NCBI GenBank assembly: GCA_020431405.1
Contig: JAGQIK010000705.1
Span: 1 to 41,325, forward strand
Length of the DNA stretch: 41,325 nucleotides
Source of the DNA: Myxococcales bacterium
GTDB taxonomy: Bacteria > Myxococcota_A > Polyangia > GCA-2747355
Direction: 5' to 3'
The position numbers and the translations under genes are program-made. Positions 4,824 through 41,155 of this stretch are shown here, piece after piece; the first letter of the stretch is position 1, and every line of letters begins with the position of its first letter. The notes under the pieces were generated by a model. The model ran no database searches and had not been told where the DNA came from. It was given only the letters and a program-made list of their open reading frames with translations.

Positions 4824-5849
4824 ATGGCCAACACCGAGAGCAGCAGCAAACAACGCGTCGGCGTGCTGATGGGCGGACTGTCCACCGAGCGCGAGGTCTC
4901 GCTCAAGAGCGGCGCCGCGGCCCTCGAGGCGCTCGCTCAGCGCGGCTACGACGCCGTCGAGCTGCGCGTCGACAGCCAGGTCGATCTGCTGCTGCGCGAG
5001 GCCGATGTCGACGTCGTGTTCAACGCACTGCACGGTCGCTACGGCGAGGACGGCTGCGTCCAGGGGCTGCTCGAGCTGATGCGCATCCCCTACACGGGCA
5101 GCGGCGTGCTCGCCAGCGCGCTGTCGATGAACAAGGTCAAGGCCAAGGAGCTGTTCCGTCTGCACAACCTGCCGACGCCGCCCTACTACATCCTCGACCG
5201 CGGACACCGCGATCGCATCGCCGACGTGCACGGCGCGTTCGGCTTCCCCGTCGTCGTCAAACCGTCGGGCGAGGGATCGAGCATCGGCGTCTCGCTCGTG
5301 CACGACCTCGAGGAGCTCGAAGCAGCCTGCGAGCGCGCCTTCGAGCTCGACGACTGGCTGCTCGTCGAGCGCTACATCGTCGGCAAAGAAGTACACGTCG
5401 GCATCGTCGGCGGCCGCGCGCTCGGCGCCATCGGTATCACGCCCGCCGGTGACATCTTCGACTACACCGCCAAGTACACGCCCGGCCACGCGCACTATCA
5501 CGTGCCGGCCAAGCTCTCTCCGGAGCGCTATCGCGGCGTGCTGACGCAGGCGCTGCGCGCGCACCAGGCGCTCGGATGCAGCGGCGCCACGCGCGTCGAC
5601 ATGATCGTCAGCGACCTCGGCAACGAGTACATCCTCGAGGTCAACACCAACCCCGGCCTCACCAAGCTGAGCCTGCTGCCGCGCATCGCCGAGCACGCAG
5701 GCCTGAGCTACGCCGATCTGATCGAGCGCATCCTCGACGGCGCACGCCTGCACGGCATGGGCGCCGACACGTCGCGTCCCGAGCGCCGCGTCGGGCAGCG
5801 CGGGTTCGAGGGCGGCGAGCGCCGCAAGCGCAGAGTCGCTTCGATCTAG
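4824..5849 (+). CDS. ddl: D-alanine--D-alanine ligase
   Basis: This ATP-grasp enzyme joins two D-alanines for the peptidoglycan stem peptide in the cytoplasm. The 341-residue protein shows all family blocks: MGGLSTEREVSLKSG (16-30, with Glu23), NALHGRYGEDGCVQGLLE (67-84), PYTGSGVLASALSMNK (89-104), VVVKPSGEGSSIGVS (143-157, ATP-binding Lys146), and the metal-binding end MIVSDLGNEYILEVNTNPG (260-278, Glu272 and Asn274). The ATG is preceded by AGGAGC at a good distance. A basic tail of about 30 residues (RRVGQRGFEGGERRKRR) goes beyond the usual end of the family; its role is unknown. The next gene downstream on the same strand is a transglycosylase, consistent with a cell-wall locus, but a 254-bp repeat-bearing gap separates them. 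Confidence 0.95.
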   Translation: MANTESSSKQRVGVLMGGLSTEREVSLKSGAAALEALAQRGYDAVELRVDSQVDLLLREADVDVVFNALHGRYGEDGCVQGLLELMRIPYTGSGVLASALSMNKVKAKELFRLHNLPTPPYYILDRGHRDRIADVHGAFGFPVVVKPSGEGSSIGVSLVHDLEELEAACERAFELDDWLLVERYIVGKEVHVGIVGGRALGAIGITPAGDIFDYTAKYTPGHAHYHVPAKLSPERYRGVLTQALRAHQALGCSGATRVDMIVSDLGNEYILEVNTNPGLTKLSLLPRIAEHAGLSYADLIERILDGARLHGMGADTSRPERRVGQRGFEGGERRKRRVASI

Positions 5850-6103: not shown

Positions 6104-8224
6104 GTGCGATCTTCAGCCTTCGAGCGTTGGGCGCCAGGGTGCGCGCTGTTGCTGCTTTTGGTTGGTCTGCCGGCGTCGCTGTGGCGAGCCGAGCGGCGCA
6201 TCACGCGCGCCGTCGCGCGTACGCTGAGCGTCGCCAGCGGACAGCGCGTCTCGATCGAGTCGGTGCTGTTTTCGCTGCAGCCTGCGCTGCAGCTCGATCG
6301 CGTGCGTGTCGGCGACGCGCTGAGCATCGCGCGCGTAGAGATCGCCATCGACACGTCGACGCTCTCGCGGCCGCGGCTCGCGTCGGTGACGCTGCTGCGC
6401 CCTGCCCTCACGCTCTCGGCGCATCGCACCGAGGCGCTGTGGGATGCGCTCGCGCGCGAGCGCCTGCGCGCAGCCTCGAGCGAGACCAAGCGCAAGACCG
6501 CCGCACGCCGAGGCAGAGAGCTCGACCTCCTGCGCGTGGTCGACGGCAGGCTCGTCGTCGAGCTGTCGAGCGGCACGCATCGCTACACGCTCGACGTGCA
6601 GCGCCTCGACCTGCCGGCACGCGCGCGCGGCGCGGCGAGCCGCCGGCTGGTGCTCGGTGAGACGCGACTTCTGCGCGACCGCACGCCGCTGCTCTCGCTC
6701 GCCGCCAGCGGGCTCGATCTCGACGAGAACCTGCGCCCGCGCCGCGCCGCCGTGCTCGGTGGCCGCCTGGTGCTGCCCTCCGGTTGGACCCGCGTCGGCA
6801 GCGACGCTGCGCTGACCGTGCAGACGCTGCGCCTGCGGCGCTTGCGCGGCGGCGCGCTGCGGCTGCTGCTCAAAGCGCGCCCACCTCGTCGCGACGCGGG
6901 ACACCTCTGGCTGACCGTCGACATCGCGCACGGGTCGCTGCGCCGCGCGCGGCTGCACGTGGCGCGCTTGCGCCTGTCTCCCTACGCGCCGCTGCTCGCG
7001 CGCGTCGGTTGGCTCGCCGAGCGCTCGCGTGTCGACGGCGACCTATTCATCACCGCCGCTGCCGCCGACGCGAGCGCCGACGGCGTGCCGGGCGCGCGCG
7101 CGCTGTCGCGACGTGACGGCTACGCGCTGCGCGGCGATCTGCTGGCGCGACGCGTGCGCATCGAGCACCCCTGGATCGCCGCCGGCATCGTCGGCCCCTT
7201 CGACGCGAACATCGAAGCCAACGCGCACCTCGACGAGCGCGGCGTGCTGACCTTGAAGCGCGCGCGCGTCGCCAGCGGCTCGCTCGAGCTGCGCCTCGCC
7301 GGCCGCATCGCTGCCGCGGCGAAGGGCCTCAAGCTCGCGCTCGACGCCGAGATGCCGCAGCTGCCCTGCCAGCGGCTGCTCACCGATCTGCCGCGCGGCT
7401 TCGCGCCGCACCTCGACGGCATCGGCGTCGAAGGCGACGTCGGCGCACGCTTCGCGCTGCGCGTCGACAGCAGCAAGCTCGACGACACGCACGTCGACCT
7501 GGCGCTCCTGCCCAAGGGCACGCGCAGCTGCACGGTGAAGGCCGACCCGCCAGCCGCCGACGTCAACACCCTCGCGAAGTCGCTGACCATCGCCGTCGGC
7601 GGCGCGCGCGGTCTCGGCCGCCGCCTGCGCCTCGGCAAGTCCAACAAGCACTTCCGCAGCTACCGGCGCATCCCCAAGCACGTGCGCGACGCCTTCGTCG
7701 TCGCCGAGGACACGCACTTCTATCGCCACCGCGGCTTCGACCCCAAGCAGCTGCGCAACGCCTTCGTCGCCAACCTGCGCGCCGGGCGCCTGGTGCGCGG
7801 CGCGAGCACCATCAGCCAGCAGCTGGTCAAGAACGTCTTTCTGCACCACGCGCGCACGCTGTCGCGCAAGTTCGAGGAGGTCGTGCTGACTTGGCGCATG
7901 GAGCAGGTGCTGGCCAAGCGCCGCATCCTCGAGCTCTACCTCAACATGGTCGAGATGGGCGCCGGCGTGTATGGCGTGCAGGCCGCCGCGCAGCGCTACT
8001 TCGGCCGCGACGTGAGCGAGCTGACGCCGCTACAGGCCGCGCACCTCGCCGCCCTCACCCCGGCGCCCCGCCCGCTCTCGCGCCGCTTCGCCAAGGCCGA
8101 GCCCGACGCCAAGTGGATGGACAAGCTGCACCTGCTGCTCCGCCTGATGCGGCGCTCGGGCAGCATCTCGCGTGGTCAGCAGCGGGTCTGGGCCAAGCGC
8201 AAGCTGGTGCTGGTCAGGCGCTAG
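6104..8224 (+). CDS. AsmA-like protein fused to a GT51 peptidoglycan transglycosylase
   Basis: A protein of 706 residues, read from GTG 6104, which has GGAG just upstream and precedes the single N-terminal membrane anchor (CALLLLLVGLPASLW). Residues about 30-480 look like an AsmA-type periplasmic region with repeated hydrophobic beta strands (for example SVLFSLQPALQLDRVRVGD, LRLAGRI). Residues about 500-700 are a glycosyltransferase 51 domain: catalytic Glu535 in VVAEDTHFYRHRGFD, GASTISQQLVKN, RRILELYLNMVEMG, GVYGVQAAAQRYFG and LAALTPAPRPLSR. There is no transpeptidase domain, so it should polymerise lipid II glycan strands outside the inner membrane. AsmA-like regions are linked to envelope lipid transport, so the fusion is unusual. 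It follows ddl on the same strand and converges on the phosphoesterase gene with a shared hairpin. Confidence 0.82.
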   Translation: MRSSAFERWAPGCALLLLLVGLPASLWRAERRITRAVARTLSVASGQRVSIESVLFSLQPALQLDRVRVGDALSIARVEIAIDTSTLSRPRLASVTLLRPALTLSAHRTEALWDALARERLRAASSETKRKTAARRGRELDLLRVVDGRLVVELSSGTHRYTLDVQRLDLPARARGAASRRLVLGETRLLRDRTPLLSLAASGLDLDENLRPRRAAVLGGRLVLPSGWTRVGSDAALTVQTLRLRRLRGGALRLLLKARPPRRDAGHLWLTVDIAHGSLRRARLHVARLRLSPYAPLLARVGWLAERSRVDGDLFITAAAADASADGVPGARALSRRDGYALRGDLLARRVRIEHPWIAAGIVGPFDANIEANAHLDERGVLTLKRARVASGSLELRLAGRIAAAAKGLKLALDAEMPQLPCQRLLTDLPRGFAPHLDGIGVEGDVGARFALRVDSSKLDDTHVDLALLPKGTRSCTVKADPPAADVNTLAKSLTIAVGGARGLGRRLRLGKSNKHFRSYRRIPKHVRDAFVVAEDTHFYRHRGFDPKQLRNAFVANLRAGRLVRGASTISQQLVKNVFLHHARTLSRKFEEVVLTWRMEQVLAKRRILELYLNMVEMGAGVYGVQAAAQRYFGRDVSELTPLQAAHLAALTPAPRPLSRRFAKAEPDAKWMDKLHLLLRLMRRSGSISRGQQRVWAKRKLVLVRR

Positions 8225-8230: not shown

Positions 8231-8962
8231 CTACACGCCCAAGAACAAGCGATTGCCGAAGTTGCGCTCGAGGTCCGTGTCGAAGATCTTCGAGGCGGCC
8301 TTCTCGATGTCGTATTCCTGCCGCTTGAACTCGAAGGTCATCTCGTCGGTGTCGAAGATCGTGTAGCTGGCGCGCGGGTCGTAGTCGCGCGGCTGGCCGA
8401 CGCTGCCCACCGAGATGATGTACTTGTAGTTCTCGCGGATCTGGAAGTGCGTCGCCACCACCTCGTGCACCTCGGTGGGGCCGATGGCGAAGGCCTTGCA
8501 CAGGTGCGAGTGGCCGATGAACGTCACGCGCGCGAGGTCGTCGAAGACGGGCAGCAGCTGGCGCGCCTGGTCGAGCGCGAAGATGTACTCGAACTCTTCG
8601 AGGTTGACCGGCGAGCCGTGGCAGAAGGCCAAGCCCTGCTCGCGATGCTCGTAGGGCAGCGTGCGCAGCCACTTCAGGTTCTCTTCGGTGAGCAGCGACT
8701 GGTGCATGTCGAGCGCGTTGCGCGCGGCCTCGTAGTAGTACGAGTAGTCCATGCGCCCCGCCACCGCCGCGTCGTGGTTCCCCACTATCGTCACCGACGC
8801 GATCGAGCGCACTCGCTCCGAGCAGGCCTGAGGGTCGGCGCCATAGCCCACCGTGTCCCCCAGGCAGATGATCTTGTCGATGCGCTCGCGATCATAGGCG
8901 CGAAGCACCGCCTCGAGCGCCTCGAGATTCGAGTGCACGTCGGAGAATATGGCAATGCGCAT
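8231..8962 (-). CDS. Calcineurin-like metallophosphoesterase
   Basis: A 243-residue protein with every metal ligand motif of the metallophosphoesterase fold: FSDVHSN (Asp8, His10), GDTVGYG (Asp36), GNHD (61-64), CHGSP (His115) and GHSH (150-153). It therefore binds two metal ions and hydrolyses phosphomono- or diesters. The size and compact form resemble the YfcE/MJ0936-like group, but the substrate cannot be read from sequence. The ATG at 8962 starts directly at the first beta strand (MRIAIFSDVH); a longer frame upstream is unsupported. The gene is divergent from the ubiquitin-like cassette with a 108-bp spacer, so shared regulation is possible but not shown. Confidence 0.9.
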   Translation of the reverse strand: MRIAIFSDVHSNLEALEAVLRAYDRERIDKIICLGDTVGYGADPQACSERVRSIASVTIVGNHDAAVAGRMDYSYYYEAARNALDMHQSLLTEENLKWLRTLPYEHREQGLAFCHGSPVNLEEFEYIFALDQARQLLPVFDDLARVTFIGHSHLCKAFAIGPTEVHEVVATHFQIRENYKYIISVGSVGQPRDYDPRASYTIFDTDEMTFEFKRQEYDIEKAASKIFDTDLERNFGNRLFLGV

Positions 8963-9070
8963 GCGTAAGATGGTACTCGGCGGCGCGCGCGGGACGCAAG
9001 CACCACCGGCGCTGCGTCGACGCGCAACGGCGGAGCTGCTAACCTCAAGGTATCGTGGAGAGAGGTACCG

Positions 9071-38579: not shown

Positions 38580-38644
38580 ACCCACAATGTCGTCGCTGCC
38601 AGGACGACGTGTCAATCAATCCCTCGGTGATAGACTGCGCGGAT

Positions 38645-41155
38645 ATGCCGCGCGCACAGCCACGACGCAGGCGAGCGATCGTCGAAAACCCGGCCGACGG
38701 CGGGTTCGTCTACTGGCTGCTCAAGCTGTATCTGTTCGGGCTGCTGGCGCTGCTGCCCATCGGCGTGTGCGCCGCGCCCGTGGTCTACAAGGCGCTGGCT
38801 GGCAAGGCGCCGAACGTCCCCGACCTGGCGTCGTACAAGCGCCGCGCCGCGCTCGAGACGCGCATCGTCTCCGCGGACGGCCAGCTGTTGACGACGCTGG
38901 TGCGCGAGCGGCGCTACCTCGCCGAGATGCGCGAGATCCCGTCGCTGCTGATCAAGGCCTTCCTCGGCGCCGAGGACCGCTACTTCTATCAGCACGCCGG
39001 CGTGGATTTCCGCGGCATCGTGCGTGCGGCGCTGGTCAACCTGCGCGCCGGGCGCGTGCGCCAGGGCGGCAGCACGATCACGCAGCAGGTGGCGAAGTTC
39101 TTCCTCAGTCCCGAGCGCACCATCGAGCGCAAGCTGCGCGAGCTCGCCCTCGCCCGCCGGCTCGAGGCGCGCTACAGCAAGTCGCAGATCCTCTACCTCT
39201 ACCTCAACCACGTCTATCTCGGCGCCCAGGCCTACGGCGTCAATGCCGCGGCGCGTGTCTACTTCGACAAGCGCCTCGACCAGCTCGACCTCTCCGAGAT
39301 GGCGCTGATGGCCGGCCTGGTGCGCGCGCCATCACGCTACGATCCGACGCGCAACCTCCACCTCGCCCGTCGGCGACGCGATCAGGTGCTCGACCAGATG
39401 CTCGCCGCCGGCTTCATCAACAAGGCGCAGCGCGACGCGGCACGCGTCAAGCCGGTGGTGCTCTCCTCTCCGGCCGAGCGCGACGTCACGCCCTGGGTCG
39501 CGCCGACCTTCGCCGAGCACGTGCGGCGCGACCTGCTCAAGCGTCACGGGCGCAAGAAGCTCTACGGCGCCGGCTGGACGATCTCGACCACCGTCGACCT
39601 AACGATGCAGAAGCTGGCGCGCGAGCGCGTGCGCGTGGCGCTGCTAGCGCTCGACAAACGCCAGGGCTGGCGCGGCCAGGTGGCGCGGCTGAGCACGCCC
39701 AAAGAGCGCAGCGACGCGCGGGCGCTGCTCGTGCGGCTCTACGGCGCAGTGGCGCGCGCCGGCGGTCCGCCGCCGGTGCCCGACCGGCCCTACCTCGCTG
39801 TCATCGACCACGTGCGCAGCACGCGCGCCTACGGCCGCATCGGCGATCGCCGCATCGAGATCCCGCGCGAGCTGCTCAAGTGGGCGGCGCCCTACTCGCG
39901 CACCAACTTCGAAAACGACCAGACCACCGACTCGGCGCTCAAGGTGCTCGAGGAAGGCGACCTGGTGTGGGTCGAGGCGCCGACGCGTTGGATGCGGCGC
40001 CGCGACTGGGGCTCGCCCGACGACAAACGCGTCAAGATGCAGCTCGGCCAGATGCCGCGCGTCGAGGCCTCGCTCTACACCTACGACCACCAGTCGGGCT
40101 ACGTGCTGGCGATGGTCGGCGGCTTCGACTACGACCGCTCGAGCTTCAACCGCGCCACACAGGCGTGCCGGCAGCCCGGCAGCGCCTACAAGGCGATCTA
40201 CTACTCGCTGGCGCTCGACAGCCCCAAGTACTCGATGGGCATGATCCTGCAGGACCGCCCCTACCAGCCCGAGCCCGGCGAGAAATGGAACCCCCAGAAC
40301 GTACACGGCACGCTCGACGGCAAGGTCACGATGCACTTCTCGCTGGTCAAGTCGCTCAACCTGCCCTCGATCCAGCTGCTGAGCATGGTCGGCTACAAAA
40401 ACGCCGCGCAGTGGGCGCGCAAGCTCGGCTTCACGACCAAGATCCACGCCGACAAGGCGCTCGCGCTCGGCGCCAGCTGCGTGCGCATCGACGAGACCAC
40501 GCGCGCCTTCGCCACCTTCGCGCGCGGCGGAACGCAGCGCGATCCGATCTACATCCGCCAGGTGCGCGACCGCGCCGGCGACGTGGTGGAGGATCACACC
40601 ACGGTCCTCGATCCGATGCTCGACGAGGCCGACCGGCTCGATCGTTTGTGGGCGCGCGTGGGCAACAGCGACGAGCAGGCCATCGACTCGCGCACGGCGT
40701 TTCTGACCACCAAGCTGCTGCGCGACGGCGTCACGCACGGCATCGCCGCGCGCTGTCAGATCGTGCCGGCGCCGGTAGGTGGCAAGGGCGGCACCAGCAG
40801 CGACACGATGGACACCTGGTTCGTCGGCGTGACCTCACAGTGGGCGACCACCGGCTGGGTTGGCGACGACACCTACCGCCGCCCGCTGGGCAAAAAGGAA
40901 GCGAGCTACACCACGGCGATCCCGATGTGGGCCAACTATATGCGCGCCGCGGTGGGCAAGCGCCCGCACCGCGAGCTGCCGTTCAGCAGCCCGCGCGGCC
41001 TGCGCAGCGCCAAGATCGACTTCGTCACGGGCGGGCTGCCGCGCGACGGGCACAAGACGGCGACGATCTGGTTTCGACCGGGCTCGTGGTCACCGAGGCC
41101 GGAGTCGGATATCAAGGCGATCAAGCCGCCGGGGAAGTCGGCGGAGCAGCACTGA
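38645..41155 (+). CDS. Class A penicillin-binding protein (PBP1A-like)
   Basis: An 836-residue bifunctional peptidoglycan synthase: inner-membrane anchor (VYWLLKLYLFGLLALLPIGV), GT51 transglycosylase and transpeptidase. The GT51 part has Glu110 in GAEDRYFYQHAGVDF, GGSTITQQVAK (141-151), QILYLYLNHVYLG and GVNAAARVYF. The transpeptidase motifs are S-A-Y-K (513-516), S-L-N (570-572) and K-G-G-T (714-717), where most class A enzymes have K-T-G-T; the downstream SSDTMDTWFVG block is intact. The family name rests on domain order and the long insert of about 330-470 between the two enzymes. ATG 38645 precedes a basic stretch and the anchor; its ribosome site is weak. It is divergent from the PEGA gene, with 65 bp between them. 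Confidence 0.93.
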   Translation: MPRAQPRRRRAIVENPADGGFVYWLLKLYLFGLLALLPIGVCAAPVVYKALAGKAPNVPDLASYKRRAALETRIVSADGQLLTTLVRERRYLAEMREIPSLLIKAFLGAEDRYFYQHAGVDFRGIVRAALVNLRAGRVRQGGSTITQQVAKFFLSPERTIERKLRELALARRLEARYSKSQILYLYLNHVYLGAQAYGVNAAARVYFDKRLDQLDLSEMALMAGLVRAPSRYDPTRNLHLARRRRDQVLDQMLAAGFINKAQRDAARVKPVVLSSPAERDVTPWVAPTFAEHVRRDLLKRHGRKKLYGAGWTISTTVDLTMQKLARERVRVALLALDKRQGWRGQVARLSTPKERSDARALLVRLYGAVARAGGPPPVPDRPYLAVIDHVRSTRAYGRIGDRRIEIPRELLKWAAPYSRTNFENDQTTDSALKVLEEGDLVWVEAPTRWMRRRDWGSPDDKRVKMQLGQMPRVEASLYTYDHQSGYVLAMVGGFDYDRSSFNRATQACRQPGSAYKAIYYSLALDSPKYSMGMILQDRPYQPEPGEKWNPQNVHGTLDGKVTMHFSLVKSLNLPSIQLLSMVGYKNAAQWARKLGFTTKIHADKALALGASCVRIDETTRAFATFARGGTQRDPIYIRQVRDRAGDVVEDHTTVLDPMLDEADRLDRLWARVGNSDEQAIDSRTAFLTTKLLRDGVTHGIAARCQIVPAPVGGKGGTSSDTMDTWFVGVTSQWATTGWVGDDTYRRPLGKKEASYTTAIPMWANYMRAAVGKRPHRELPFSSPRGLRSAKIDFVTGGLPRDGHKTATIWFRPGSWSPRPESDIKAIKPPGKSAEQH

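Follow-up and report, generated by a model that had tools for sequence, protein, structure and literature searches.

A peptidoglycan glycosyltransferase domain joined to an AsmA-like region in Myxococcota and other bacterial phyla

The window studied here, a stretch of 41,325 nucleotides from a Myxococcales bacterium (contig JAGQIK010000705.1), encodes a protein in which a single membrane helix is followed by an AsmA-like β-strand region of about 455 residues and then by a complete GT51 domain (Table 1). Judged from sequence comparison, this AsmA–GT51 fusion is old, widespread in Myxococcota and present in other phyla. GT51 synthases are described in the available text of PMC4632607 as monofunctional glycosyltransferases (MGTs) or class A penicillin-binding proteins (aPBPs), and by its domain order the fusion is a third GT51 architecture besides these two. 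No description of it was found in the literature searched, which lay mostly outside subscription journals; domain databases may list the architecture. We propose, as a reading with about an even chance of being right, that the window protein polymerises lipid II as an active monofunctional enzyme, and that its AsmA-type groove most likely handles polyprenyl lipid for the enzyme or sets its position.

Table 1. Positions of the fusion gene, its parts and its two neighbours in the window
Feature	Positions	Strand	Basis or remark
AsmA–GT51 fusion gene, 706 aa, stop included	6104..8224	+	GTG start inferred
N-terminal membrane anchor helix, residues 1–45	6104..6238	+	AlphaFold2 helix 6–45; hydrophobic stretch in sequence
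AsmA-like β-strand region, residues 46–501	6239..7606	+	AlphaFold2 models, Pfam of relatives, HHalign, fold search
Cys422 codon	7367..7369	+	18/18 rows of alignment A1; absent from some distant members
Cys476 codon	7529..7531	+	18/18 rows of alignment A1
GT51 peptidoglycan glycosyltransferase domain, residues 512–665	7637..8098	+	Pfam; structure match to A. aeolicus PBP1a and S. aureus MGT
Catalytic Glu535 codon	7706..7708	+	Motif position, alignment A1
D-alanine–D-alanine ligase gene (ddl)	4824..5849	+	TIGR01205 313.8 bits, cut-off 245.65; synteny
Calcineurin-like metallophosphoesterase gene, convergent	8231..8965	-	Kept beside the fusion gene in part of the window's clade

The reading frame of the fusion gene runs without interruption between an upstream ATG at 5576 and its end at 8224. 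The likely start codon is the GTG at 6104, because ddl fills the preceding region up to 5849 in another frame. Counted from this GTG, residue 535 of the 706 is the Glu of EDTHFYRHRG, in agreement with an earlier note on this DNA. The AlphaFold2 model of the window protein, built from a 34-row alignment, has a mean pLDDT of 88.5 and shows a helix at residues 6–45, strands from residue 49 to about 510 and the GT51 helices. The arm folded alone reaches 88.1, and 22 strands are counted in residues 46–480. The earlier note had assigned half of the protein to an AsmA-like region; the AsmA-like character holds, while its share is nearer two thirds. A chance or frame artefact is ruled out by the GT51 match (E 4.5e-54) and by the retention of the fusion in many genomes, and a mis-joined contig by the occurrence of the same fusion in independent genomes.

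The GT51 domain of the window protein reads as intact. Pfam Transgly (PF00912) matches residues 512–665 with 183 bits (cut-off 27) and the E-value given above, and the conserved motifs are present, which bears out the completeness that had been claimed for this domain. The same Pfam model is matched in all 34 aligned members. Glu535, which we take from established knowledge of GT51 to be its catalytic Glu, is invariant in the 18 rows of alignment A1, together with Gly566, Ser568, Gln573, Arg588, Lys589, Glu592, Lys605, Tyr612 and others; for these other positions (Gly566 to Tyr612) we presume the roles generally known for the family. Between the GT51 part and A. aeolicus PBP1a, which share 42% identity, the alignment has no gaps in the motifs. 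In the fold comparison the modelled domain matches S. aureus MGT (3vmq_A) with a Z of 21.9 and A. aeolicus PBP1a with 21.6, and a sequence search of solved structures returned GT51 matches only. Pfam recognises no transpeptidase domain in the window protein, and the chain ends 41 residues past the GT51 match. The NCBIfam monofunctional model (TIGR02070, the MtgA equivalog) is narrowly missed, with 180.7 bits where 182.65 would be needed.

This conservation bears on the idea that the GT51 domain has been turned into a binding domain with no polymerase activity. The window protein and every row of A1 retain the catalytic Glu together with the remaining invariant positions, which makes such a change highly improbable. 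What speaks for it comes from distant paralogues: in one clade of fusions (L143, L145, L149 and L153), EE replaces ED in GT51 motif I and the motif His is often missing. Catalysis is possibly altered in that clade, yet even these paralogues retain the first Glu.

Membrane-contacting segments of GT51 enzymes were defined from the available text of PMC6053601. The hydrophobicity of the flap is −0.49 in the window's clade, −0.66 in short stand-alone GT51s and 0.06 in aPBPs. Whether the GT51 jaw has lost its hold on the membrane was considered: the flap is less hydrophobic than in aPBPs but resembles that of the short stand-alone enzymes, which gives no sign of such a loss. With a flap as hydrophobic as theirs, contact with the inner membrane is expected, and the GT51 domain of the fusion probably still touches it.

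The AsmA-like nature of the N-terminal region, also claimed earlier, is supported by the Pfam matches of relatives, by HHalign and by structural matches. Among AsmA-related Pfam models the window protein itself matches only YhdP (PF13116), weakly, at residues 36–169 with E 1.6e-5; the 23.5 bits fall short of the cut-off, which is 46. A paralogue in its own genome reaches 50.3 bits with DUF748 (cut-off 50), and at E ≤ 0.01 DUF748 is matched in 13 of the 34 aligned members, YhdP in four and YdbH-like in one. DUF748 is related to TamB and AsmA (PMC4494059), and a Chorein-N domain is described at the N-terminus of AsmA and TamB (PMC6791001), both as given in the available parts of these sources. 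In HHalign the arm profile matches E. coli YhdP (E 3.9e-4), AsmA (9.8e-4) and YicH (0.02), as compared with 0.23 and 0.49 for the controls YicI and Wza; these E-values are modest and the templates were single sequences. All three alignments fall on the stretch just behind the membrane helix. E. coli YdbH gave no match to the arm profile (E 0.43).

The arm was folded and searched alone because GT51 fills the fold search of the full model. Foldseek returned nothing for it at E ≤ 0.001, and the N-terminal domain of Atg2 was second by E (3.4e-3, probability 1.00). In VIA-align, ApoB (Z 11.4) and porins (Z 9–10) stand at the top, and TamAB (Z 8.0), the TamB β-taco (Z 7.8, rmsd 3.8, 119 of 131 residues), LPD-3 (Z 7.4, 305 residues, model 3–379) and the Vps13 N-terminus (Z 7.2, model 41–222) are also matched. 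With ApoB and porins ranking level with or above these proteins, the fold matches of the arm are middling. Z scores below 8 are possibly generic, and the AsmA assignment therefore relies mainly on sequence. The earlier note had held that an N-terminal fold unlike the AsmA, TamB and VPS13 type would speak against its reading. Matches to Atg2, TamB, Vps13 and LPD-3 were found, so the reading is not refuted, although generic β-folds such as porins match equally well.

Within the arm, conservation is highest in the block of residues 422–480, beside GT51, with a mean pairwise identity of 0.292 in A1 and 0.244 in A3; the remaining arm has 0.16–0.21 and GT51 has 0.47. From this pattern we infer a special contact between the arm and the GT51 domain. 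Cys422 and Cys476 of the window protein are possible disulfide partners; the pair is missing in several members of the wider set, for example L045, L047, L052, L056 and L066. The fast divergence of most of the arm, while its position in the protein is kept, would fit a rigid spacer or docking platform that sets the distance or orientation of GT51 to the membrane, the wall or partners, with lipid binding being unimportant. The arm length also varies among relatives, and the hydrophobic alternation in its 22 strands is not significant (2.26 as compared with 1.80 ± 0.30 in shuffled strands). Such a plain spacer is the main rival to a lipid-handling groove, though we consider it unlikely. A conserved, family-specific block with a Cys pair invariant in A1 suggests that the arm does more than hold a distance, and the available text of PMC8593681 and PMC8912898 connects known relatives of AsmA with lipid transport.

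Six GT51 genes are present in the genome of the window. Four carry transpeptidase parts, which Pfam recognised in the PBP1A of the window and which were seen in the translated sequence of the other three. The remaining two genes are AsmA fusions, the second one lying on contig C173 (L164); a plain short GT51 is absent. The second GT51 gene of the window (38609–41155, + strand) belongs to the bifunctional PBP1A family (TIGR02074, 522 bits). Two PBP1C-like genes of the same genome, L004 (C699) and L006 (C513), both follow a frame that resembles the end of an alpha-2-macroglobulin gene, and an association of PBP1C with alpha-2-macroglobulin genes is known.

The window arm alone, used as query, finds matches in 24 of 39 relatives, own genome counted, and GT51 motif I is in the same frame at all 19 loci fetched with it from other genomes. 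A survey of the domain pairing in Myxococcota had been proposed in the earlier note. We carried it out with a junction profile (A4) made of the last 173 arm positions without any GT51 columns. At E ≤ 1e-5 it matches 93 of the 143 Myxococcota genomes, with at most three places per genome, which rules out a rare single fusion. Both GT51 motifs are in frame at each of the 30 best-scoring loci fetched. GT51 is also present at all of 12 hand-picked lower-scoring places (one of them a repeat), where motif II was recognised by pattern in 11 and by eye in L147.

From a scan of named genomes the best 80 loci were taken, and 33 of them, with a long upstream part and without transpeptidase, form alignment A3; L048 (truncated), L074 (upstream part judged non-coding) and L097 were left out. 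The A3 rows include Myxococcota, Oligoflexales, WOR-3, Acidobacteria and Bacteroidales. L097 is a fusion from Mucilaginibacter kameinonensis. Its arm matches 12 of 118 genomes of its phylum, a lower bound because the query was one sequence, and GT51 is in frame at 10 of these 12 loci. When the Bacteroidota arms (three rows) are compared by HHalign with the Myxococcota-based profile, in which two of the three rows also sit, they align over 389 columns with a probability of 99.8 and E 2.2e-30, and the alignment covers the block before GT51.

A GT51 tree of 133 rows was calculated by a quick method. Repeats (L003, L005, L007, L009–L013 and L114), L074, L155, identical domains and two short rows cut by contig ends (L031 and L084) were left out; L097 and L147 are absent for their variant motif II, and five truncated rows (L029, L039, L043, L048 and L121) are labelled fused. 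The 84 fused rows need two changes on this tree, while shuffles need 40 on average; thus the two modules stayed together. The window protein belongs to a subclade of 23 rows, all of them fused, whose support is starred. The two changes would fit a single fusion followed by one loss; a single origin is unproven, because the choice of rows favours fused members. The fused group also takes in four short GT51s without transpeptidase, L067, L087, L105 and L111, which come from one Bdellovibrionales, two Bacteriovoracaceae and one Legionella species; support is low there. They are best read as having possibly lost the arm.

Gene order was compared in the window's clade at 23 distinct loci (24 with one repeat), of which four are too short upstream and 19 are usable; the repeats in the whole synteny set are L163 (equal to L038), L172 (L053) and L173 (L056). 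At 13 of the 19, window included, ddl lies directly upstream on the same strand with 44–100% identity. Two more loci carry a weak ddl-like gene there (26 and 30% identity), that of L061 being far below the cut-off of the Ddl model, which brings the total to 15; ddl is absent upstream at L049, L157, L158 and L162. None of the 30 loci of other fusion clades (28 distinct) has it, with less than 2.5 kb available upstream of the catalytic Glu codon at five of the 30. This difference, 15 of 19 against none of 30, ties the window's clade to peptidoglycan synthesis. The ddl gene touches or overlaps the fusion gene at several loci (L036, L038, L042 and L044), whereas 254 bases separate the two in the window. 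A convergent metallophosphoesterase gene is found downstream at many loci of the clade. At six loci (L036, L037, L038, L040, L042 and L160) a second, divergent ddl-like gene lies about 5 kb upstream on the opposite strand, with 28–31% identity to the window Ddl. A phosphatase for undecaprenyl pyrophosphate (C55-PP) or a flippase was not recognised in the neighbourhood of the window's clade, nor among the neighbours of the other clades, which were clustered from a crude gene caller and judged by eye.

Other fusion clades have neighbours of their own. In the clade of the second own-genome fusion (L164 on contig C173, and L046) an ECF-type sigma factor-like gene lies upstream, joined in the own genome by an anti-sigma-like gene, both named by eye, and this suggests an envelope-stress control of that clade. 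In another clade (L056, L058 and L174, from an Oligoflexales and Myxococcota-like genomes) a small conserved putative lipoprotein, with a lipobox followed by CYNTY, is encoded directly upstream. By analogy with ynbE for ydbH, it is a candidate outer-membrane partner.

This resemblance to the E. coli ydbH–ynbE pair and the AsmA-like fold itself would fit the proposal of the earlier note, a coupling of wall synthesis to the growth of the outer membrane through an arm that carries phospholipid in that direction. For the window's clade that proposal is not supported, given the length of the arm and the clade's conserved neighbour ddl, which encodes an enzyme of peptidoglycan precursor synthesis; no conserved outer-membrane gene was found beside this clade. 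With about 455 residues, the arm has the size of AsmA (617 aa) and YicH (569 aa), not of YhdP (1266) or YdbH (879), and so should not reach the outer membrane. Its length can be estimated from the known length of TamB and the known spacing of β-strands. Scaled to the 16 nm rod of TamB, as described in the available text of PMC6791001, it would be about 6 nm long, and counting its strands gives an upper limit of about 10 nm. Furthermore, its distal end is occupied by GT51. Arm length and gene context thus make outer-membrane coupling, which we regard as very unlikely, the weakest of the three readings next to the groove and the spacer.

In the preferred reading, with a groove that handles polyprenyl lipid, the membrane anchor and GT51 are joined by an AsmA-type β-strand arm instead of the short linker that is usual there. 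On the outer face of the inner membrane the predicted GT51 would polymerise lipid II; separate transpeptidases would cross-link the polymer. The groove beside GT51 would bind a lipid, most simply undecaprenyl pyrophosphate after its release or lipid II by its polyprenyl tail, and would thereby feed substrate or clear inhibitory product. The arm then probably stays near the inner membrane or hands lipid to a raised active site. Against this reading stand the middling fold matches of the arm, the hydrophobic alternation that is not clearly above that of shuffled strands, and the fact that neither a C55-PP phosphatase nor a flippase was recognised beside the window's clade. C55-PP strongly inhibits E. 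coli PBP1B, as reported in the available text of PMC6053597, and product clearing is therefore a plausible need. Taken together with the link of AsmA relatives to lipid transport, this makes a groove that serves the polymerase with polyprenyl lipid the simplest joint reading. A stricter version, which we hold to be quite unlikely, would make the groove a private lipid channel that carries lipid II in, or undecaprenyl pyrophosphate back, between the inner membrane and a GT51 raised to the level of the wall. If true, a lipid-transfer groove would act directly in glycan polymerisation, and there would be a second way to feed a peptidoglycan polymerase besides docking to the bilayer. In any case, a lipid-transport-type fold occurs in one chain with a wall polymerase across much of a phylum and in others. 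If the groove holds polyprenyl lipid, the fusion would allow a direct test of lipid II delivery and C55-PP removal, and would provide a biochemical readout for the poorly understood short AsmA proteins.

With MtgA and S. aureus MGT (TIGR02070) the fusion shares the GT51 fold, the single N-terminal helix, the conserved motifs and the absence of a transpeptidase. It differs from them in the arm of about 455 residues between anchor and GT51, and it stands apart from most short GT51s in the tree, four short rows falling inside the fused group. Class A PBPs (PBP1A family) also carry GT51, and the GT51 of A. aeolicus PBP1a is the closest solved relative; unlike them, the fusion has no transpeptidase, and its extra domain is N-terminal rather than C-terminal. 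E. coli AsmA, YicH and DUF748 proteins resemble the fusion in the membrane helix, in the AsmA/Chorein-N-like start behind it and in the comparable size of the strand-rich region; the fusion differs by its catalytic-type GT51 and by the family-specific block before it. The bridging AsmA-like proteins TamB and YhdP are related to it at the N-terminus (E 4e-4 for YhdP, Z 7.8 for the TamB β-taco). Compared with these and with YdbH, the arm of the fusion is much shorter, too short to span the periplasm, and bears a GT51 domain at its distal end.
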